In this document: positions 3,873-25,613 of the stretch, one piece after another
Numbering within the stretch: position 1 is the stretch's first letter
How the letters are laid out: every line of letters begins with the position of its first letter
From: a virus
Strand: one strand, 5' to 3'
IMG/VR virus record: IMGVR_UViG_3300027851_000122
Span: 1 to 25,613 of that record
Length of the DNA stretch: 25,613 nucleotides
Position numbers and translations under genes: made by a program
Notes under the pieces: model-generated
Told to the model about the DNA's origin: nothing
The model's database searches: none
Seen by the model: the letters and a program-made list of their open reading frames with translations, nothing else

Positions 3873-5102
3873 ATGCCAATCAAGCCTATTGTGAATTACT
3901 CGATGTACGGGAAGACGGTTCGGGTATTCCCGTTCGCACCTAATTGGGCATCTCCGGTCAACGAAACGCTTGAGTGGAAGACTGATGTTCTCCGCTCCTA
4001 CAACGGTGACGAGCAACGCCGACAATTGCGCCAGTTACCCCGCCGAGAGTTCGAATACGACATCATGGTGCACGGCGAGCAGGCCGCAATGCTTGAGTCC
4101 TACCTGTGGTCATGGCAACACAAGGATTTCGCATTGCCCGTCTGGACCGACACGGTTGAACTGACTTCCGACATTGCCAGCGGTGCGGTGTCATGCTCGG
4201 TCAGTAACACGTCATTGCTCGGGTTCGCACAGGATCACTATGCGGTGATCTTCGGTGGGCCGAAAGACTGCGAGGTAGTCAAACTGTCCTCAGTCTCGCA
4301 GAACGGGTTTGTGTTCGTCACGCCAACGGCATACGGGTGGCCTGCCGGGACGAAGGTATACCCGCTGATGCTCGGGCACCTCGGCACGTCTGTCAAGACC
4401 GTTCGACACACGAGTTCTGTCGCGACGCTCGGAGGTATTCGCTTCCAAGGCAATGCCGGTGAAAGTTTTCTCAACGTGCCGGGTATCGCTGCGCCACTTG
4501 TCTACGATGGGTATGAGATTTTCACCACCTCGCCGAATTGGGAGAGTACGATCAGTAACGATCTCGAGCGTGATTTCGAGATTGTCGACAGCGGCGTGGG
4601 TGTGGTTGGCTACCTGCTGCGGAACACGAAGCCTCGCACCGTCAAGCCGTTTTCATGGCTGCTGAAATCGCGGGAACAGATTCATGCCTTCCGTGGTTTC
4701 GCCGGTCGTCGCATGGGGCAGTTGAAAACCTGCTGGATGCCATCGTGGAATGACGACTTCATCCTTGCTGCCGACAACTCGACCGATCAGACGAAACTCA
4801 CAGTGAAAGGGATTTGGTTCGCCGACTTGGTGGGTGTCGATCTGTCCCGTGACCGGCTCATGGTGACGATGCCTGATGGTTCGCTCCTGTTCCGTCGAAT
4901 CACTGCAACCACGCCGAACAACGGGTCTGACGTGACCGTGCTTCAGTTGGACTCGACCATTGGATCAACTATTGGTGTTGGCGACAATGTTAGGTTGCGG
5001 ATATTATCAAGGTGTCGGCTCGCCACGGACAAGATTGTGATCCCCTGGCGTAGCACTTCAGTCGCTACCCCTCAAACCTCATTCACGACGGTCAAGACAT
5101 GA
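3873..5102 (+). CDS. Distal tail-like minor tail protein
   Basis: This 409-residue protein directly follows the tape measure gene and precedes the hub gene. That is the position of the distal tail protein in siphophages and in gene transfer agents (tape measure, distal tail, hub, tip). It begins with a conserved-looking N-terminal block (about residues 1-70: PNWASPV, LEWKTDVL, YNGDEQR, RQLPRREFEY), consistent with a ring-forming domain bound to the tube. The middle is rich in beta strands and there are no membrane segments. ATG 3873 lies 2 nt after the tape measure stop, and its stop overlaps the next start as ATGA, so translation is probably coupled. The distal tail role is inferred from position and general character; no catalytic motif is visible. 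Confidence 0.75.
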   Translation: MPIKPIVNYSMYGKTVRVFPFAPNWASPVNETLEWKTDVLRSYNGDEQRRQLRQLPRREFEYDIMVHGEQAAMLESYLWSWQHKDFALPVWTDTVELTSDIASGAVSCSVSNTSLLGFAQDHYAVIFGGPKDCEVVKLSSVSQNGFVFVTPTAYGWPAGTKVYPLMLGHLGTSVKTVRHTSSVATLGGIRFQGNAGESFLNVPGIAAPLVYDGYEIFTTSPNWESTISNDLERDFEIVDSGVGVVGYLLRNTKPRTVKPFSWLLKSREQIHAFRGFAGRRMGQLKTCWMPSWNDDFILAADNSTDQTKLTVKGIWFADLVGVDLSRDRLMVTMPDGSLLFRRITATTPNNGSDVTVLQLDSTIGSTIGVGDNVRLRILSRCRLATDKIVIPWRSTSVATPQTSFTTVKT

Positions 5103-6187: not shown

Positions 6188-6381
6188 TCGTGACGCACGC
6201 TGACATGGTTGCGTGCGGGTACTGCAATCGAGGTGCCCGTGCGTTCTGTGAGCGTCACGGAATCAACTGGCAGATGTTTGTGCAACACGGGATTGATACC
6301 AAGGAAATCGAACATATCGACGACGCCATGCTGCAGCGGGTCGTCGATTACGCAACGCAGCGAACCCAAGGAGCGCAGTAA
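6184..6381 (+). CDS. Small tail-tip-associated protein (conserved type, unknown function)
   Basis: The 65-residue product contains GYCNRGARAFCERHGINW (about 12-29), a GYC-RGAR-F-ERHG pattern that I recall in short proteins wedged between the hub and central tip genes of other phages. No signal or membrane segment is seen. Two cysteines (about 14 and 22) and a histidine could bind metal, but this is speculation. It overlaps the upstream gene by ATGA and its TAA shares a base with the ATG of the tip gene. AAGGAG at 6368-6373, inside this gene, serves the tip gene. The strict overlaps suggest that the three tip genes are made in balanced amounts. Confidence 0.78.
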   Translation: MIVTHADMVACGYCNRGARAFCERHGINWQMFVQHGIDTKEIEHIDDAMLQRVVDYATQRTQGAQ

Positions 6382-9300
6382 TGGGTGGAAAGAGCGGAGG
6401 CGGCGGGGGGAGTTACGTCGCAGGTTACAAGTATCACATGGGCGTGCAGATCATCGCATGTCACGGCCCAGTCGACAGCTTGAACCGCATTATCGTCGGC
6501 GAGCGAGAAGCCTTCGTCGGCTCGGTCACGTCGAATCAGACCATCTACATCGACAAACCCCAGTTGTTCGGCGGTGACTCCCGCGAGGGGGGCGTGCAAG
6601 GCTACGTCGACGTGATGATGGGTGCTGCCGATCAAGCGCGGAACGACTACCTCGCAACGCATCAGGGGGTGAACTGCTCGGCGTATCGCGGGCTGGTGTC
6701 GATCCTGTTCAAACAGTTCATGTGGGCATCGGGGAACCCGTACTTCAAGTCGCCATGGGTCGAACTGACCCGCGTGTTGAAAGGGTGGCAAGGTAATACC
6801 CCTTGGAACCCCACCGAAGCGATTATCAACGGGTTGGACATGAATCCTGCCCATATCATCTATCAGTGCCTCACCGATACCTCATGGGGCATGGGCTACA
6901 ACCCGGCAGACATCGACGAGGCGTCGTTCCTTACTGCATCCGCCCAACTGAAGTCAGAAGGGTTCGGCCTGTCGCTCGCATGGGACAAGCAGTCGTCCAT
7001 TGAAGCGTTCGTTCAGACGGTCGTTGATCACATCAACGGGGCGGTCGGGATCAACTTGTCGACAGGGAAATTCAGGCTGACCCTGATTCGCGACAACTAC
7101 GTGATGAACGAACTGCTCGAACTCAACGAGTCGAACATCATCGAACTGCGGTCGTTCCAACGGGCAGCCTACGGTGACTCGGCGAACGAGGTGGTCGTTA
7201 CTTACACCAACCGCGATCAGTCCGACGCGACGATTGCCGTGCAGGACATCGCCAGCATCGCAGCGCAGGGTGCCGTCATTTCGGTAGCACGGAGCTATCC
7301 GGGTATCCGCACTGCCGACCTGGCCGCACGGGTGGCACTGCGCGAGTTGAAATTACTCTCCGCACCGCTGGCAAAAGTCGTCCTCGTTACCAACCGCATC
7401 ATGTGGGATCGGGAAAAGGGAGATGTGGTCAAGCTCGTTTGGCCGAACCTCGGCATTGCCGGTGCAGCCTTCCGTGTGATCGACGTCGACAAGGGCACAC
7501 TGACTGACGGCAAGATCACCGTGACGATGGTTGAGGATGTGTTCGGACTACCGCTCAACAGTTACACCTCGACCCCGCCTTCGCAGTGGGTCGACACGGT
7601 CAAAGACCCGATTGCCGTTGATGCTGCCCGTGCAGTAGAAGCCCCGTATTGGGAGGTGGTCAGGAACATCAGCCTCGCCGATCAGGCGAACCTCCAACCC
7701 GAGTACGGGTTCGGCATGTTCATGGCGAGTCGCGGGGCAGTCAGATCGACCCTCAACTACACCTTGAGTGCGTCTGCCGACAACACGACCTACCGTGACG
7801 TTGGCACAGGGCATTTCAGTCCGGTTGGATCACTCGCATCGACCATCGGGCCGACTGTTGAAACATTCAGTCTGAGCGGGGCGTATGACCTTGAGTCGGT
7901 ACAACTCGCTGCTGACGGTGGTTACGCCTATATCGAAGACGAGTGTGTTGCAGTCACGGCAATCAACCCGACGACCGGCGAAGTGTCGGTCAAGCGGGGC
8001 ATCCTCGATACCGTACCGGCGACACACTCGTTCGGCTCGAAAATGTACTTCGTCACTCGGGGCGCAACCTACGACGCGACCGAGCGGGTTGCCGGTGAAA
8101 CGGTCTACTACAAGCCCCTGCCGACCACCGGGTTGGGTACGCTCGACCCTGCCGACGCTGTTGCGGAAACACTGACCCTCGCGAACCGGGCAAGCCGACC
8201 TTACCCGCCCGGCAACTTCAAGGTTGAAGGTGCCGCATACCCGACGACCATCAACGGGCCTAACATCAGTGCGTCGTGGTCGCATCGTGACCGCCTGGCA
8301 CAGACTGTATCATTCATCGACTACTCTGCAGGTAACATTGGCCCCGAACCGGGTGTGACCTACCGGATGCGCGTCTACAACGGTTCGGCCTTGCTGCGAA
8401 CCTACGACCTGTCGGGCGACACTACCTCATGGTCGTATCCGACTGACGACGATGTTGCAGATGGGCGCTTGTCGGCAATTACCTTGCACCTGACGAGCGT
8501 TCGCGATGGTATCGAGTCTTACCAGGCTGTCCGACATACGTTCAACCGCCTGGTCGTCGCGGGCGGTACGTTCGTGAATGGCCCGCCTGCAACGCCGACC
8601 CTCACTGCGATCAGTACGGTATTCAGTGTCACGTTGAATTGGACATTCGGCGATGCTCGCACGAACCTCGTCAAGACTGAAATTTGGGTGTCGAAAACAC
8701 CGCAGTTCGCAGATGGTGCACCGCTGCAATACGTCAACTACCCGACGACACAGTACGTGCATGAGATTGAGCAAGCAGGTGCATTCCGGTGGTATTGGAT
8801 TCGCGTCTACGACAATGCAGGGCAGTTGTCGCAGTGGTCGGCAATCGCGAACGCTCGGGCAGGGTTCTCAGGTGGCGTACCGACCGTAGTCGTCCTCCCG
8901 GTAACACCGACCCCCGGTGTTGAGGTTGTGCGCCTGTCGAACGGCGACCTGTACTCATGGGACGGTAACAAGTGGATCAAGGCGGGTGACATCGTTGCCA
9001 GGTCGATCACTGCGAACGAGATTGCGGCACGAACCATCACGGCGAACGAGATTGCGGCCGATACGATCACTGCGAACGAGATTGCAGCAGGTACGATCAC
9101 GGCGAACGAGATTGCTGCGGGAACGATCACGGCGAACAAGATTGCAGCCGGCACGCTGACTGCTGACAAGTTCCAGGCCGGTGAACTGACGGTCAATGAA
9201 ATCAGTGTCGGCGACTTCACCGGCTACGCATGGCCTGCAGCAGGCGGTACGGGCGTGCATTTGAGTTCGGCAGGCATCCTGGCCGGTAACCCGAACCCGT

Positions 9301-9932
9301 CGCCGGGTAATCCGCTCGGCAAGTATTTCCAGGTCTATACCCCGGCGAACGGTACACCTTCGATTTCGACGAACATCCCGGCGTACATCGAGGATTTGCA
9401 GGTAGACACTGTCAAGATCAAAGGGCAGGCGGTGACGGTGCCGACGAGTTCATTCACGAATGCGAACGGGGCACTGATCAGTGGCGCTGGTTTTGGAAGT
9501 GGGTATGTGTCAGGTGCGTACCAAATAATCGGCCCTGTGAATATCGACCTAAGCGCCGTCCCTACCTCACTAAGCCCCGTGCCAGTTACCATTACAGTGG
9601 GTGGGCGACCTTGGGTGAGCAACACGCCGTTAGGTACGCTCGGCGCAGCAGCGAAGTTGTCGTTTTACATGATGGGTGCAGGTGGGTATCTCGAATTTGT
9701 ATTGCGCGTGGACGGTGTGGATTACGCAGTCCTTTCCAGTACTGGAGTTCTCCCCGGTGGGACAACTCAACTCACATGGGTATCCCTAACATCCGCCCTT
9801 GTCTCATTGTCGTTAAGCAATGCGAACCACACTGTTGACGTCATTGCGCGATGGGTTAATGGCCTTTCATCCACGGCATCCAACCTGTCAGTCTCCTACC
9901 CCGGCTTGATCGCCCTTACAACGAAGAGGTAA
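6381..9932 (+). CDS. Central tail tip / host-specificity protein (gpJ- or megatron-like)
   Basis: At 1183 residues this is the large tip protein that follows the hub. After a Gly-rich start (GGKSGGGGG), residues about 15-40 hold VAGYKYHMGVQ and CHGPVD, typical of the N-terminus of such proteins. Residues about 200-385 resemble the Phage-tail_3 domain (TVVDHINGAVGINLSTGKFR). Fibronectin-like beta-sandwich segments follow (about 605-835). Seven decapeptide repeats (ITANEIAAGT type) occupy 876-945, a motif common in tip protein C-termini. The last 140 or so residues are beta-rich and likely receptor binding; there the codon choice changes to CTA, TTA, ATA and AGC, which are rare earlier, suggesting module exchange. 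AAGGAG at 6368-6373 sits 7 nt before the ATG. Confidence 0.9.
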   Translation: MGGKSGGGGGSYVAGYKYHMGVQIIACHGPVDSLNRIIVGEREAFVGSVTSNQTIYIDKPQLFGGDSREGGVQGYVDVMMGAADQARNDYLATHQGVNCSAYRGLVSILFKQFMWASGNPYFKSPWVELTRVLKGWQGNTPWNPTEAIINGLDMNPAHIIYQCLTDTSWGMGYNPADIDEASFLTASAQLKSEGFGLSLAWDKQSSIEAFVQTVVDHINGAVGINLSTGKFRLTLIRDNYVMNELLELNESNIIELRSFQRAAYGDSANEVVVTYTNRDQSDATIAVQDIASIAAQGAVISVARSYPGIRTADLAARVALRELKLLSAPLAKVVLVTNRIMWDREKGDVVKLVWPNLGIAGAAFRVIDVDKGTLTDGKITVTMVEDVFGLPLNSYTSTPPSQWVDTVKDPIAVDAARAVEAPYWEVVRNISLADQANLQPEYGFGMFMASRGAVRSTLNYTLSASADNTTYRDVGTGHFSPVGSLASTIGPTVETFSLSGAYDLESVQLAADGGYAYIEDECVAVTAINPTTGEVSVKRGILDTVPATHSFGSKMYFVTRGATYDATERVAGETVYYKPLPTTGLGTLDPADAVAETLTLANRASRPYPPGNFKVEGAAYPTTINGPNISASWSHRDRLAQTVSFIDYSAGNIGPEPGVTYRMRVYNGSALLRTYDLSGDTTSWSYPTDDDVADGRLSAITLHLTSVRDGIESYQAVRHTFNRLVVAGGTFVNGPPATPTLTAISTVFSVTLNWTFGDARTNLVKTEIWVSKTPQFADGAPLQYVNYPTTQYVHEIEQAGAFRWYWIRVYDNAGQLSQWSAIANARAGFSGGVPTVVVLPVTPTPGVEVVRLSNGDLYSWDGNKWIKAGDIVARSITANEIAARTITANEIAADTITANEIAAGTITANEIAAGTITANKIAAGTLTADKFQAGELTVNEISVGDFTGYAWPAAGGTGVHLSSAGILAGNPNPSPGNPLGKYFQVYTPANGTPSISTNIPAYIEDLQVDTVKIKGQAVTVPTSSFTNANGALISGAGFGSGYVSGAYQIIGPVNIDLSAVPTSLSPVPVTITVGGRPWVSNTPLGTLGAAAKLSFYMMGAGGYLEFVLRVDGVDYAVLSSTGVLPGGTTQLTWVSLTSALVSLSLSNANHTVDVIARWVNGLSSTASNLSVSYPGLIALTTKR
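9006..9185 (+). repeat. 30-bp in-frame tandem repeats in the tip protein gene
   Basis: Five close copies of a 30-bp unit (9006-9035, 9036-9065, 9066-9095, 9096-9125, 9126-9155) are followed by a diverged sixth (9156-9185) and a trace of a seventh. Each encodes ten residues of the form ITANEIAAxT. Copies alternate between ACTGCG and ACGGCG at the start of the unit. They keep reading frame, so the repeat number can change by recombination without breaking the protein. The role is probably a spacer before the receptor-binding end. Confidence 0.9.
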
Positions 9933-12250: not shown

Positions 12251-12765
12251 ATCAGTACGTCGCTATTGCCGGTGCTGCAGTGTGGGCCTTGTCGCTCGCC
12301 TGGACATACGACGCAGGCAAGACTGCTGAACGCTCAGTGTGGCTCGACCGTGAGTCTGCGGAACTTAGATCGGCAAACGGTGAAATCGTCGAACTTGAAA
12401 ACAAGGTCAAGGCTGACCACTTGGCACACTCGGCACGCCTTTCCTCGGTGGCCGAGCAGTATGAAAAGGAGAAGCAACGTGAAATCGAAAAGCGTGATCG
12501 CCGCATCGCTGATCTGCGTTCTGACAACCTACGGTTGCGCGACCCCGGCAGCAAAAACACCGCTGGCGGTAAAGCAGATGGAGTTACCACCGGCACCAGC
12601 CAGTGTGATGGTCACACGGGAAGCCAACTTTCAGTCGAGGCTTCTGAATTTCTTCTCCGACTCACCGGAGAAGCTGACGAAGTAGTAGCCCAACTGACCG
12701 CATGTCAGGCGGTCGTCCAATCTGATCGCGGAATGACCGCAACTACCGAAGGAGAAGTAAAGTGA
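12247..12765 (+). CDS. Rz: Inner-membrane spanin (Rz-like)
   Basis: The 172-residue product starts at ATG 12247 (ATGA overlap with the previous gene). It has an N-terminal membrane anchor at about 4-20 (YVAIAGAAVWALSLAW), then a long Glu/Lys/Arg-rich coiled coil (about 25-100), then a looser periplasmic C-terminal part with two cysteines (QCDG, TACQ). This is the plan of an i-spanin, which pairs with an outer-membrane lipoprotein to fuse the membranes in the last step of lysis of Gram-negative cells. That partner is encoded inside it in the +1 frame (12479-12685). The frame is open back to 12172, but the ATG at 12247 begins exactly at the anchor. Confidence 0.85.
   Translation: MNQYVAIAGAAVWALSLAWTYDAGKTAERSVWLDRESAELRSANGEIVELENKVKADHLAHSARLSSVAEQYEKEKQREIEKRDRRIADLRSDNLRLRDPGSKNTAGGKADGVTTGTSQCDGHTGSQLSVEASEFLLRLTGEADEVVAQLTACQAVVQSDRGMTATTEGEVK
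12479..12685 (+). CDS. Rz1: Outer-membrane lipoprotein spanin (Rz1-like), embedded in Rz
   Basis: A 68-residue frame lies wholly within the i-spanin gene, +1 to it. GTG 12479 has AAGGAG (12466-12471) exactly 7 nt upstream. The product starts MKSKS, then has a hydrophobic signal core, then VLTTYGC with Cys20 as likely lipidated residue (the lipobox is weak: Thr at -3, Tyr at -2). The mature 49 residues are Pro-rich near the start (ATPAAKTPLA, ELPPAPASV), as in lambda Rz1. It should sit in the outer membrane facing the periplasm and bind the i-spanin. An ATG at 12461 in the same frame is possible but has no ribosome site and adds a very basic start. Confidence 0.83.
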   Translation: MKSKSVIAASLICVLTTYGCATPAAKTPLAVKQMELPPAPASVMVTREANFQSRLLNFFSDSPEKLTK

Positions 12766-14366
12766 AAGTGAAAGACAAATCGATTGCGAACTTGCTCGCA
12801 CGTCACGGGATGCCCCCGGTCGTTGCTGAAGCATTCAATGGCATGGTGACGGCTAAGACCGACCCTCTCACCGGGGGGGTTGAGGTTCAGATGCTTGCTG
12901 CGTCTGATATTCCGTCCGTAAACAACACTATCGCGCTACTCGGTGACTCCATTACCCTGCGCAATCAACAGGGGGCTACCGCAGTCTGGAACAACGAGGG
13001 TTATTTCATCGTGGCCAACATGCTGATGGGTCAGCGGTATGAAATCGTCTATGTCACCGGACTGTCAGGCTATACCATTGAGCAAATTGCGGCGTCCGGA
13101 CTTCAGTCTGTGCTTTCAAGCGGAGCTAAAACATGCTTTGTCCTCGCTGGAACGAACAATGCCGCTGACGCTGACGCTGCAACCATCTACGAAAAGCTGA
13201 CCTCCCTGCTTTGGGAACCGCTCCGCGCCGCTGGTATTCGCGTTGTCGCCGGTACGATCCCGCCGAATGGTGGATGGACTGCCACCCAAAGCGGCAAGAT
13301 GATGGCCGTCAATGACATGATCCGCGCCGCGCCTTCAATCTATCCAGGCTTGCGCGTTGCCGATCTGTGGGCCGCTACGGTGGATGGCGCAACTGGCGCG
13401 CCGCGTTCAGGTGTGTTTGTTGACAGCATTCATCCTTCTGCGCGTGGAGCAATGTATTTCGCCCGCGCTATCGCAGCCGCGCTAGATGGCGTCGATGTGA
13501 TTGTTCCCAAACGTAGTAGTGGCGGTCGACTTGATCCGCGCATTTTGAACCCAAATCCGCTTGCTTTTGGCAACAATGCGACGGGCACCAATGGTTTTAT
13601 TCTTGGTGTTGGCGGCACGGGAACCGGACCTGACCAGTGGAGCGTGTCGAGCAGCAATGCCGCGACGACGTTTACCTGCTCTGGTAACAACGCTCGGAAT
13701 CCTGTCGATTACATTGATGGCAAGTCGCTTGATGTATCCGTTACCTACGGCGGCGACGACCATTATTTCCAGGCATTTACAAAATCGGATTCTGGTGACA
13801 ACTACCTAGATCGTGTGTGGGCTGCTACGACCGCGAAAGTTCACGGGGCTATTGTCAAGCCCACGGCGGGTCGTAACGGTTTCGTTTATAAAGCTGTCAC
13901 AAGCGGCACAACCGGAGGCGCTGAACCAACGTGGCCGACAGTGGCAGGTAATTGTGTTACAGATGGCACTGTCACATGGATGGCTATCAAGGATGTAGTT
14001 GCTGGCGATGTCTATGAGTTTGAGGCTGAAGTTGTTTTTTCAGCACTATCTGGGACTGTCTGCCCGATGCTGCGAATCAGCTTCGACAATGCCGGTTACA
14101 CTGGTGTTTTGAGGCCATTGCTGATTGCCAACGGTGTTGCCGTACCAAGTGTCGATACAAATCCGGTCAGTCCTGGATTCAATACAGGCTCAAACGCCTG
14201 GGATTACGTTCCGTTAAATGAGCCGATTGTGATCCGCAGCCAAAAAATCGTCATTCCATCACAGGACATCGTGAGCCATATCTCACCACAGTTCAGGCTT
14301 TACGGAAAAAACGGCACGACGGCCACGTTCAAGGTTCAGCGCCTTGAGTTCCGCCGAGTTGGCTAG
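12762..14366 (+). CDS. SGNH/GDSL hydrolase, likely virion-associated glycan deacetylase or esterase
   Basis: The 534-residue protein has an N-terminal piece (1-50, with TDPLTGGVEVQ), then an SGNH domain: block I LLGDSIT with Ser63, block III GTNN at 130-133, and block V DSIHPSARG with Asp221 and His224. These supply the Ser-Asp-His triad. Residues 364-410 hold a YKAVTSGTTGGAEP / WPT / DGTVTW motif that I recall as a beta module repeated in phage tail proteins; the C-terminus is beta-rich and may bind sugar. It could remove acetyl groups from capsule or O-antigen. GTG 12762 overlaps the Rz stop as GTGA, with AAGGAG 7 nt upstream. After codon 50 or so the codon choice shifts toward T- and A-ending codons, unlike the upstream genes, which suggests transfer. 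Confidence 0.85.
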   Translation: MKVKDKSIANLLARHGMPPVVAEAFNGMVTAKTDPLTGGVEVQMLAASDIPSVNNTIALLGDSITLRNQQGATAVWNNEGYFIVANMLMGQRYEIVYVTGLSGYTIEQIAASGLQSVLSSGAKTCFVLAGTNNAADADAATIYEKLTSLLWEPLRAAGIRVVAGTIPPNGGWTATQSGKMMAVNDMIRAAPSIYPGLRVADLWAATVDGATGAPRSGVFVDSIHPSARGAMYFARAIAAALDGVDVIVPKRSSGGRLDPRILNPNPLAFGNNATGTNGFILGVGGTGTGPDQWSVSSSNAATTFTCSGNNARNPVDYIDGKSLDVSVTYGGDDHYFQAFTKSDSGDNYLDRVWAATTAKVHGAIVKPTAGRNGFVYKAVTSGTTGGAEPTWPTVAGNCVTDGTVTWMAIKDVVAGDVYEFEAEVVFSALSGTVCPMLRISFDNAGYTGVLRPLLIANGVAVPSVDTNPVSPGFNTGSNAWDYVPLNEPIVIRSQKIVIPSQDIVSHISPQFRLYGKNGTTATFKVQRLEFRRVG

Positions 14367-17533: not shown

Positions 17534-17728
17534 CTACGATGCCCTGGTCAGTCGTTCAACCTTGCGGATAACTTCGGCGTGCCGCGAGGTGCTACCGACA
17601 ACATGGCCGTTGCGATAGAAAGTCCATTGGAAGCGCGAACGCTGACGACTCCAACCATATTCGCACTTCACCCCACCGGGTTTTCCCACTGCATTCGCTT
17701 GACGGGTTATCAGGTCTATCAGATTCAC
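17534..17728 (-). CDS. Small basic hypothetical protein (64 aa)
   Basis: The product is strongly basic (CEYGWSRQRSRFQWTFYRNG, RKVERLTRAS), so it may bind nucleic acid, but no motif is clear. GTG 17728 overlaps the stop of the ParB-like gene as GTGA, with GAGGAAG about 7 nt upstream; a longer frame from 17752 would run into that gene and is not favoured. Its coupling to the ParB-like gene suggests a related role. Confidence 0.68.
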   Translation of the reverse strand: MNLIDLITRQANAVGKPGGVKCEYGWSRQRSRFQWTFYRNGHVVGSTSRHAEVIRKVERLTRAS

Positions 17729-18585
17729 AGTTCTTCCTCGACAACGGTGCACTTGCCGTGCGCTTCGATCAGATCACGAACGACCTTGGCGGGCAGCGCA
17801 ACCTCGATCACCTCGTCGTCGCCGAGTGCGTTGACGTCGTCCATTGTCATGGGAATTGCGGCCTTGAATTCGGCGGCAATACTGATGAAAGACTGTTGCA
17901 CCTTGGCGGGCATCTTCACGCCGGCAACGTGCTTCTTGGTGACCTTCTTTCCACCGCTCGCCTTGACTACCTCAACTTTCTTGCCTAGGTAATCTGCCGC
18001 CTTGCTGCCGTGCTTCCGAACGGCGTCAACGACCACCAGGGCCGAAACCTCGCCGCGACTGAGCATCTGCTGAACCTCGCTCGGTGCTTCGGCGAGAATG
18101 AGCCAGTTGTCGATAGTGTTGCGGTGCAATCCGGTACGCTCGGCAATCTGCACGACAGTCATGCCGTATCGCACCAGGCGCAGGAAACCGCGACCCTGTT
18201 CGAGCGGTGTCAGCGCCTTGCCCTGAGCAGTTCCGAGCATGTGCAGGACACAATCGGCGTCGTTGCCACGGTATTGCCGTGCTTCGAGCAGGTATTCGAT
18301 ACCCTCAGACTTCAACCGACGTGCAACGCGAGTGCGGCAATGCCCGTCGCGCACGATCACGCGACCGTCCACAACGCTCACGTCGATGGGTGGAACTGCT
18401 GCCCCGGCCTTCATTGCCAAGTACAGTGATTCGAGATACGCGGTCAGATCGTCACCTTCTTCGCGCAGGTTGAACCCTTCCTCGAACTCAAGAATGTCAG
18501 GGTCGACCTTGAAGTAGGTTGCTTTCTGAATACCGTCCGATTTCGCTTCGGCCATTGCCTTGAGCGATACGTGTTGCTTGGTCAT
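17725..18585 (-). CDS. ParB-like DNA-binding protein
   Basis: The 286-residue protein has a ParB/Srx-type N-terminal domain (about 25-120) with PPIDVSVVDGRVIVRDGHCRT (in part) at 65-85; DGHCRTRVA stands where ParB proteins carry their nucleotide-binding GxxR motif. A helix-turn-helix follows at about 143-165 (TVVQIAERTGLHRNTIDNW), as in ParB/KorB. The C-terminal part has a Lys-rich linker (KKVTKKH) and ends acidic (VVEEEL). No ParA gene is visible, so partition is unlikely from this window; a transcription or DNA-binding role early in infection is more likely. It starts in an ATGA overlap with the gene upstream. Confidence 0.85.
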   Translation of the reverse strand: MTKQHVSLKAMAEAKSDGIQKATYFKVDPDILEFEEGFNLREEGDDLTAYLESLYLAMKAGAAVPPIDVSVVDGRVIVRDGHCRTRVARRLKSEGIEYLLEARQYRGNDADCVLHMLGTAQGKALTPLEQGRGFLRLVRYGMTVVQIAERTGLHRNTIDNWLILAEAPSEVQQMLSRGEVSALVVVDAVRKHGSKAADYLGKKVEVVKASGGKKVTKKHVAGVKMPAKVQQSFISIAAEFKAAIPMTMDDVNALGDDEVIEVALPAKVVRDLIEAHGKCTVVEEEL

Positions 18586-20499: not shown

Positions 20500-21416
20500 A
20501 GTTCGTCCTCGTCATCGCTATCGGTGGTCGGCGAGTCGGTCATTTCCATACCGGCAAGCAGGTTGTTCAGCATTGCGTTCACTTCCTGGGACACGAGTGC
20601 TGCAGTCCCTTCGAACTCTTCTGCTGCGTCTGCCGACTCGGCTTCCTTCAGGATCACATCGCTGAACTTAATACCCTTCACAAGCAGTTGATCGGTGACC
20701 TTGAAGCTCATTCGGTCACCGTAGGTCACCGCCAGTTCGACAGGTTGCATTCCAGCAGTGATGCGGTCGTTGATTGCTTCGACGGATGCCGGTATGGCCT
20801 TGAAGCGTGCGACGGACTTCTGCGACCCCTTGAGGACGACTTCCTCGCCGACTGTGAAATCCCCACTTTCAGTTGATTCGTTGAGCAGCAAATCCATCAA
20901 CCAGGGGCCAACCTCGTACCCGTGACCGAGTGACACGAGAGACAGTTTCTCGTCTTCAAACAGTTGCGTCAGCAGTTCAAGCGTGGTGTCAATGCGACGT
21001 GCGCTCGTTGCACCGATCAGCAGGTACTCGCGGGTGATCATTACCGGCACGTCGACCGGCTTGATGTGCGAGGACGGCAGCAAGGCCATCGTGACCTCTT
21101 CCTTGAGTTCGGCCATCTGCTTGCGACTCGGCTTGTACCCTTGGCGCTGTTCGTACTCGATGACCTTGTCGACCATTGCCTCCTTGATGACGCGGGCCGG
21201 CAGCAAACGCTCACGGATTTGCACGTTCAGGATGACCGTACCATCGGCGGCAGTGAACACCGGCAGATCGTTGAAAACGGTCGAGAACCCGGCAAACGCC
21301 CACATGGTCTTTTCAGGGTTACGGACGGTCGCTTCGGGCAGCACACCGTCGATGCCGCGTAGCAGGATGCTGGTCGCACGGTCACCGAAACGGAAGGCGG
21401 TAAATGATTTCAGCAT
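20496..21416 (-). CDS. rdgC: RdgC-family recombination-associated protein
   Basis: At 306 residues it is close to E. coli RdgC (303). The family signature is clear: MLKSFTAFRF at the start, ERLLPARVIKEAMVDKV (about 69-85), RKQMAELKEEVTMALLP (about 98-114) and, near the end, an L-N-LL-G run before an acidic tail (SDDEDEL). RdgC forms a ring-like dimer that binds DNA and limits access of RecA. A phage copy may protect replicating phage DNA from host recombination or control the phage's own recombination. It overlaps the acyl carrier protein gene by 7 nt. Confidence 0.9.
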   Translation of the reverse strand: MLKSFTAFRFGDRATSILLRGIDGVLPEATVRNPEKTMWAFAGFSTVFNDLPVFTAADGTVILNVQIRERLLPARVIKEAMVDKVIEYEQRQGYKPSRKQMAELKEEVTMALLPSSHIKPVDVPVMITREYLLIGATSARRIDTTLELLTQLFEDEKLSLVSLGHGYEVGPWLMDLLLNESTESGDFTVGEEVVLKGSQKSVARFKAIPASVEAINDRITAGMQPVELAVTYGDRMSFKVTDQLLVKGIKFSDVILKEAESADAAEEFEGTAALVSQEVNAMLNNLLAGMEMTDSPTTDSDDEDEL

Positions 21417-21658
21417 TGCTGTTCTCCAATAGTGCGGGTGACAAGGGCAATCGCATCAGCGACGGTCTTCACGGACTCAATCTCACCGTCGTCGATGTCG
21501 ATTTCGAACTCGTTCTCGATTGCCATGACGACCTCAAGTGCGTCCAGACTGTCAAACCCGAGGTTATTGATAAAGTCGGTTTCAACGGAAAGCGGAGGGG
21601 TGGTTAGCCCGACTTGTTCTTTGATGACGGTCATCACCCGTTCTTCGATGGATTTCAC
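21410..21658 (-). CDS. Acyl carrier protein
   Basis: The 82-residue protein is a full-length acyl carrier protein: four-helix pattern, acidic, with DSLDALEVVMAIENEF (36-51) and Ser37 as the site for the phosphopantetheine arm. It begins at GTG 21658, with AAGGAG 7 nt upstream, right after the exonuclease gene. In bacteria this protein carries growing acyl chains and also binds regulators such as SpoT and MukB. In a phage early operon it may redirect acyl groups, act as a decoy or serve a modification enzyme. No synthase or transferase partner is visible in the window, so the role is open. Confidence 0.9.
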   Translation of the reverse strand: MKSIEERVMTVIKEQVGLTTPPLSVETDFINNLGFDSLDALEVVMAIENEFEIDIDDGEIESVKTVADAIALVTRTIGEQQC

Positions 21659-24841: not shown

Positions 24842-25222
24842 TCAGCCGGTGCGTAGTGCGGTCGCAACGACGACGATGTTGTTGTCCCGTGTCATGTAGT
24901 GACCCGTGACCGTCGAGTATTCACCGCCTGTCCGTGCTGCTGCACGACTCACCGCCTTGTTGACGGTCGACCGCAATGCCTTGATGACCTGATCGAAGGT
25001 CTGACGGTCGGTCGTGTTGAAGTCGATGTAGCGCGACTCGCTGCAACACTCACCCATGGACAAGGCTTGAATCCGACCCACGAGGGTCATGTTGGTCGGT
25101 TGTGCTGCGGTGGCCTGGGGTGCGTCGGTTGCGCTGCTCTCCTGCATGTCGGTCGGAACAATGCCGCTTGACTTGTGACGAGGTGGAGGGTTTGAGGGTA
25201 GGGGTTTCGGTGGTGCTTGCAT
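24842..25222 (-). CDS. First early gene, hypothetical protein (126 aa)
   Basis: This is the first gene behind the early promoter. The N-terminal 45 residues are Pro/Ser/Thr/Gln-rich and probably unstructured (PPKPLPSNPPPRHKSSG). From about residue 45 a small folded domain follows: RIQALSMGECCSESRY, then an alpha helix with FDQVIKALRSTVNKAVSRAA and a C-terminal beta strand (NNIVVVATALR). Similar short proteins of unknown role occur in early regions of related phages. ATG 25222 has AGGA 9-10 nt upstream. Confidence 0.72.
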   Translation of the reverse strand: MQAPPKPLPSNPPPRHKSSGIVPTDMQESSATDAPQATAAQPTNMTLVGRIQALSMGECCSESRYIDFNTTDRQTFDQVIKALRSTVNKAVSRAAARTGGEYSTVTGHYMTRDNNIVVVATALRTG

Positions 25223-25248
25223 GGTCGGTGTCCTGTTGAATTGCGATC

Positions 25249-25278
25249 AGTCTATGTGACCCGTTTGAACTATGTCAA
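25249..25278 (-). promoter_or_regulatory. Main leftward early promoter
   Basis: On the minus strand TTGACA (25278-25273, perfect) is followed after 18 bp by TAGACT (25254-25249; 4 of 6). Transcription would begin near 25242, about 20 nt before ATG 25222. The TGCTTGACATA block and the TTGAAA run just upstream also occur at the promoter at 19306-19334. Confidence 0.68.
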
Positions 25279-25320
25279 GCACTATTTCAATACTTAAGTG
25301 TGTCATTTGTATGTAACACA

Positions 25321-25337
25321 GCATGTCGCTCACATGC
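25321..25337. promoter_or_regulatory. Perfect dyad, candidate operator
   Basis: GCATGT (25321-25326) and ACATGC (25332-25337) form perfect 6-bp inverted arms around CGCTC. The dyad lies about 45 bp upstream of the early promoter -35 box, in noncoding sequence, so it may bind a regulator of the leftward or an unseen rightward promoter. Confidence 0.45.
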
Positions 25338-25350
25338 GTTGTGGGGTGAA

Positions 25351-25429
25351 CAGGAATCCGGCCAACCTGCCGAAGTAAGGTCGAGGCGGGCCGATCGACC
25401 TGGAATCCGGCGAGGTCGGCAGAGTAAGG
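25351..25429. repeat. Two 30-bp direct repeats, 49-bp period
   Basis: 25351-25380 and 25400-25429 share 22 of 30 bases. Both keep GGAATCCGGC at the start and AGTAAGG at the end, while the middle varies. Weaker relatives of the first block (GGCTGGAA) occur at 25438-25445, 25506-25512 and 25583-25589, and of the second (AGTAAG or AATAAG) at 25480-25485 and 25569-25574. Confidence 0.7.
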
Positions 25430-25613
25430 ATTTTCGGGCTGGAATTCTCACCGAAATAGGTGCCCGGCCACACCTCTCAAGTAAGCTGTTGAAAAATCTG
25501 TACCGGCTGGAAAATTGAAGTAGTGCAGGCCTGCCGGGTAGGTGCTGCAGTAGAACGGGCACCCGGAAATAAGCGAAAATCGGCTGGAATCGTTGTGCCG
25601 CAAGGCTTTCCGG

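Follow-up and report, generated by a model that had tools for sequence, protein, structure and literature searches.

Iteron-type replication origins, such as lambda ori with its O-protein iterons, P1 oriR and RK2 oriV, and the operator arrays that temperate phages carry at divergent promoters, lambda OR/OL among them, are the described systems closest to the DNA element reported here. Like the iteron-type origins, the element has several same-direction sites of ~20-25 bp beside a phage or plasmid gene and, in some members, AT-rich repeats, and an Erythrobacter member has tight 24-25-bp spacing together with AT-rich 13-mers. It differs from them in that most units in the Casjensviridae are irregular and 30-90 bp apart, AT-rich repeats are not general, and the array has neither a cluster of DnaA boxes nor a known initiator family encoded beside it. 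With lambda OR/OL it shares sites repeated between divergent operons and near both promoters, whereas the sites here are direct repeats without symmetry, stand upstream of the promoter elements rather than over them, and persist in virulent Chi-like phages. The locus analysed here is orthologous to the control region of Salmonella phage Chi, Hafnia phage Enc34 and Serratia phage JS26 in slot, orientation, bipartite unit and DUF7609 neighbour, but its units are more degenerate and have lost the T-run, and the contig does not include the region's distal half.

Genomic context of the array

The DNA analysed, referred to here as the window, is a whole IMG/VR record of 25,613 bp. It is part of the genome of a Casjensviridae-type phage, and its gene order and content agree with those of the Casjensviridae (SS2019XI, AH2, BcepNazgul, Enc34 and the Chi-like phages). 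A comparison of tail proteins puts the closest phages at some distance, with ~48% in Pseudomonas phage SS2019XI. Tail genes run rightward from position 1 to ~14.4 kb, and a leftward operon extends from 25222 down to ~14.8 kb, with products that include RdgC, a 3'-5' exonuclease, an acyl carrier protein, a dNMP kinase, a MazG-like protein and a ParB-like protein. The acyl carrier protein gene (21410-21658; phrog_5934, E 2.3e-18) is in the middle of this operon, adjoining RdgC, and the long tail protein encoded at 6381-9932 carries about six tandem TITANEIAA-type repeats (window positions 8970-9230). No tRNA was detected in the window with ARAGORN.

Upstream of the leftward operon the window is free of genes from 25223 to the contig end, which cuts the region. 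The preliminary description had recognised this gene-free stretch but placed its start at 25279. Of the expected divergent arrangement the leftward operon is present, and the contig stops before the expected rightward operon. The first gene of the leftward operon (24842-25222, minus strand; p25222) encodes a DUF7609 protein (phrog_6647, E 9.5e-10; DUF7609, E 1.6e-13), and a sigma-70-type promoter for the operon lies at 25249-25278 on the minus strand (TTGACA, 18 bp, TAGACT), ~74 bp from the first array unit. The promoter search found one such site where 0.3 were expected, and by reading, relatives have TTGACA-17-TATTGT in the equivalent position.

Array units in the window

A bipartite motif, RCCsGCnAGG-N5-6-AAGTAAG, is repeated upstream of the DUF7609/phrog_6647 gene in four tandem, degenerate units at about 25353, 25402, 25463 and 25502, all on the plus strand and pointing away from the gene. 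Under a motif model built without the window, unit 1 (25353-25380, GGAATCCGGCCAACCTGCCGAAGTAAGG) and unit 2 (25402-25429, GGAATCCGGCGAGGTCGGCAGAGTAAGG) rank first and second of all window positions with scores of 11.4 and 9.9, although a single top-scoring unit is not significant genome-wide, as mononucleotide shuffles reach 17. Unit 3 (25463-25485, CCCGGCCACACCTCTCAAGTAAG) ranks fifth with a score of 8.4, on the matching strand and in the correct slot, and the degenerate unit 4 (25502-25524, ACCGGCTGGAAAATTGAAGTAGT) ranks ninth with a score of 2.4. A possible fifth, strongly degenerate unit at 25532-25555 on the plus strand (TGCCGGGTAGGTGCTGCAGTAGAA), picked out by eye only and below the scan threshold, resembles, again by eye, CCGGGTAGGTTTTTGAAGTAAG of Salmonella phage Siskin.

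The significance of the array comes from the presence of several units in one place and not from the score of any single unit. When the motif model made from other phages was applied to 25223-25613, the summed same-strand score of the best two, three or four hits was reached by none of 4000 shuffles and by none of 994 other 391-bp stretches of the record. The front half of unit 2 is near-identical to GATCCGGCGAGGTTTTTCAAGTAAG of Pseudomonas phage SS2019XI, and AAAAATCTGTA stands before unit 4 as it does before the last, degenerate unit of SS2019XI. Alignment of the two arrays, the shared AAAAATCTGTA included, scores 78, against a shuffle maximum of 61.

All the repeat elements listed in the preliminary description are present in the region and exceed chance in shuffles. 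The excess of 6-mers and 7-mers was reached by none of 500 dinucleotide shuffles, and the best 30-mer pair (21/30) by three of 500. The two direct repeats, GGAATCCGGC-N11-AGTAAGG at 25353-25380 and 25402-25429, do have the period of 49 bp, but are 28 bp long rather than the 30 bp originally given. Three further GGCTGGAA copies (25437, 25505 and 25582), AGTAAG boxes at 25374, 25423 and 25480, a 10-bp palindrome GCAGGCCTGC at 25525 and the inverted pair GGTGCCCG/CGGGCACC at 25459/25556, 97 bp from start to start, were likewise found; some of the GGCTGGAA and AGTAAG sequences, taken earlier for separate boxes, are parts of the degenerate units.

Conservation across relatives

A direct DNA search of phages and plasmids with the window array gave nothing usable, because the window units are too degenerate. 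The divergent region of SS2019XI equivalent to that of the window has four clean GATCCGGCGAGGTTTTTCAAGTAAG copies, the unit type of window GGAATCCGGCGAGGTCGGCAGAGTAAGG, and this array served as a usable bridge query, matching 156 phage records. Nearly all of these are Casjensviridae or their host-mates, and mostly no annotated feature lies under the match. A first motif model, made from Enc34, Smarc5 and Siskin, found three to five same-orientation units in SS2019XI, pPM01, UF_RH7, PibeRecoleta, SAKp15 and YSD1, and one in Nazgul; a broader model, with the window still left out, found three in Nazgul and returned the window units at ranks 1, 2, 5 and 9 of all positions, with hits at 25352, 25401, 25458 and 25497 respectively. 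Arrays of three to six units are present in SS2019XI, Enc34, Smarc5, Siskin, YSD1, pPM01, UF_RH7, PibeRecoleta, SAKp15, Nazgul, JS26, FoX4 and AhaSv. Their orientation and slot are constant, between two divergent operons and beside the first gene of one, and scans of the whole or nearly whole genomes of YSD1, Enc34, SS2019XI and JS26 found no second array. On these comparisons the Casjensviridae conserve the array's position, its orientation and the sequence of its units. It is present in temperate members (AH2 and SS2019XI, with integrases) as well as in virulent ones.

The motif derived from 113 distinct units is R-CC-s-GC-n-AGG-T-rich-S-AAGTAAG, in which the conservation of AAGTAAG is overstated for the viral contigs, where it was partly fixed by the search patterns. 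The second box drifts, to AAGTACC in JS26, AAGCGGG in AhaSv, AAAGTACGG in phiAxp-2/AXY1 and CACAGAGGGG in Erythrobacter R22L. Smarc5 and Siskin have common unit spacings of 49-43-71-51, and are 85% identical in the units and 43% in the spacers, a footprint of selection. The spacing is irregular in most members and shows no helical phasing.

The only match of a first exact pattern in viral contigs was to an unrelated sequence that has no array. The search of viral contigs for close relatives of the proteins p25222, RdgC and a tail protein gave matches that were too sparse or too remote, relatives of the ParB-like protein in viral contigs had only that gene in common with the window, and genome contigs yielded no close protein relatives. 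SS2019XI has a second gene-free region of 820 bp at 44464-45284 (L006:16465-17285). It lies upstream of the primase side, contains a number of long inverted repeats (21 nt, 90%) and no array units, and could be the lysogeny switch.

Coding and RNA readings of the array

In the window a 108-codon minus-strand frame is open across the region, and similar frames are annotated in relatives (SS2019XI gp55, Nazgul12 and JS26 gp14), as would be expected if the repeats belonged to a small repetitive protein-coding gene. The unit spacings break such a frame: only 24 of 50 are multiples of three, and the clearest pair in the window is 49 bp apart. The spacers are not conserved, and in JS26 the annotated gp14 (6676-6918 by our count in CDS order), which overlies the units at 6726-6912, received no reads in strand-specific RNA-seq (PMC8754663), so that the JS26 array is not transcribed in the gp14 sense direction. 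We consider a coding gene barely credible. Neither finding that the preliminary description would have taken as a refutation came up, for relatives keep the repeat blocks and share no coding frame across them.

The same missing reads over JS26 gp14 (PMC8754663) bear on the earlier proposal of a structured early RNA, that is, a structured leader or a small early RNA. The minus strand of the region folds slightly better than its shuffles (z -1.96, a borderline value), while the plus strand is ordinary (z -0.18). Within the units a best stem of 4 bp was found in 44% of the 113, compared with 46% of column-shuffled controls, so the units show no internal stem beyond the controls, and Rfam gave no match beyond chance. 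A structured RNA is thus very improbable. Judged from sequence, the array evolves as spaced double-stranded sites, and not as a gene or a folded RNA.

The DUF7609 gene accompanies the array

One gene borders nearly every array. DUF7609/phrog_6647 was found in all 13 records of the first test set, each time next to the array slot, and the Pfam DUF7609 match was recovered in 15 of 15 homologues. Among viral-contig loci with at least two units, the DUF7609 gene stands beside the array in 23 or 24; in one locus (L139) gene and unit have a different relative order. In a prospective test, AhaSv, chosen solely for its DUF7609 homologue, proved to have four units spaced 35 bp apart in the gap upstream of the homologue. 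Conversely, AchV4 gave no phrog_6647 match and no unit within the 12-kb stretch searched, and the control phages MW2 and ctsTn925, which are without DUF7609, had no array in the stretches scanned. JS26 has two DUF7609 copies in one operon, one beside the array (L143:7120-7419) and one 5.5 kb downstream (12693-13025).

A different partner had been suggested earlier, the ParB-like protein, encoded at 17725-18585. With it, the repeats would be a parS-like centromere or partition array. Its gene is in the leftward operon, 6.6 kb away, but phrog_1033 occurs in only four of the 13 array-slot phages tested and is missing from the other nine; Enc34, the Chi-likes, pPM01, UF_RH7, PibeRecoleta and SAKp15 all keep the array without a ParB-like protein. 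Moreover, the units are asymmetric direct repeats and not palindromes. We regard a partition array as highly unlikely, and the DUF7609 protein as the leading candidate ligand.

An AlphaFold2 model of the window DUF7609 protein is confident for residues 45-126, where it has beta structure, a long helix and two strands, a predicted compact beta-alpha-beta-beta domain. Chains of the nucleic-acid-binding Alba family and SpoVS recur in comparisons with the model at Z 4-6, which is in the range of common arrangements and a hint at best; the Alba-like similarity, at Z of about 5-6, is below the level that shows kinship. A Foldseek search of the PDB gave no match with E below 0.001 and no clear family. 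A sequence match in the PDB, 7rdr, belongs to a designed tendon-repeat protein, and we discounted it as reflecting composition. The DUF7609 proteins might even form a novel class of DNA-binding initiators or organisers in phages, perhaps with an Alba-like fold, that recognises the bipartite iterons and co-evolves with them, the second box drifting while array and protein stay paired across the family; we hold this larger proposal to be unlikely.

Promoters and transcriptional control

In JS26, strand-specific RNA-seq placed gp01-gp13 early and gp15-gp45 in mid-infection (PMC8754663); gp15 is the DUF7609 gene, with numbering counted by CDS order. By this orthology the window's leftward operon probably belongs to the middle class, and the term 'early operon' used for it in the preliminary description is probably wrong, since it is the divergent gp01-gp13 operon that is early.

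With the array-side operon middle and the divergent one early, something must delay the operon beside the array. This timing lends weight to the main and serious rival to an origin: that the array is for transcriptional control only, its units being operators or activator sites that set when early rightward transcription gives way to middle leftward transcription. The array stands upstream of the leftward promoter, at a distance of ~50-80 bp, and its units all face one way relative to that promoter; a DUF7609 gene in first place in the operon would fit autoregulation. On the other hand, the leftward promoters are, by reading, near-consensus with a spacer repeat of their own, so that a distant second array is not obviously needed, and the AT-rich 13-mers beyond the array of R22L are left unexplained. 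Control of the middle operon alone could well be the function, though we lean against it. In Enc34 the divergent promoters (L014:3840-3870 and 4455-4490) have, by reading, a common near-palindromic repeat, ACATACGCGGCRTGT, in the -35/-10 spacer; one repressor could silence both operons, and similar repeats are present in Siskin and Smarc5.

A candidate replication origin

The simplest reading of several asymmetric sites that share one direction in a non-coding divergent region is a protein-binding array. We favour an iteron-type array of this kind, which would probably be a replication origin with DUF7609 as the leading candidate ligand, and give this reading about an even chance of being right. 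In this reading at least four same-direction asymmetric sites, or iterons, lie in the non-coding space between two divergent operons; each would be bound by a phage-coded protein, the candidate being the DUF7609 protein from the neighbouring first gene of the middle operon, and several bound copies would form a nucleoprotein complex that opens the DNA and starts phage replication. Binding to the array may also adjust the flanking divergent promoters.

An origin is our first choice because family members in Erythrobacter have compact iterons followed by 13-bp AT-rich repeats, matching in slot and order, and because temperate and virulent members alike have retained the array. In the array slot of R22L five iterons are spaced 23-25 bp apart and are followed by the AT-rich 13-bp repeats (lag-13 match 22/26, reached in none of 2000 shuffles); in Sphingomonas Carli the units are spaced 25 bp apart. 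R22L offers a compact candidate origin, in which the AT-rich 13-bp repeats are joined, beyond the iterons, by an exact tandem duplication of 41 bp (L154:1660-1749, 1472-1553). The window itself has several copies of one site in one orientation, as expected of direct-repeat iterons, although units 3 and 4 are degenerate and the far half of the region is cut off, which counts against an origin, as does the irregular spacing without helical phasing in most members. An AT-rich element beside the array is clear in R22L, moderate in Enc34 and Smarc5 and absent in SS2019XI, Nazgul and FoX4, while the window's contig ends short of the place for one, and there is no cluster of DnaA boxes and none of note. 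GC3 skew on either side of the array showed no origin-type switch, only a small difference of the wrong sign in five genomes. The replication origin proposed in the preliminary description is moderately supported by the iteron-like anatomy and by the alphaproteobacterial 24-25-bp iterons and AT-rich 13-mers in the matching slot; GC3 skew gives it no support.

Implications for the Casjensviridae

Chi-like phages are widely studied, flagellum-dependent and candidates for therapy, and we found no account of where their replication starts, how their early/middle switch is made or what DUF7609 does. The array is not mentioned in the literature searched on Casjensviridae, Chi, AH2, FoX4, JS26 and the Erythrobacter phages (subscription papers lay outside the search), nor was a description of DUF7609 found there. 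An iteron-like array is of a known kind; the array family, its universality in the Casjensviridae and its pairing with DUF7609 appear to be undescribed. The array also flags a stretch in which spurious genes are often annotated, such as SS2019XI gp55, Nazgul12 and JS26 gp14. A family-wide DNA element tied to one uncharacterised gene makes the site of replication start, the early/middle switch and the role of DUF7609 directly testable in laboratory phage-host pairs.
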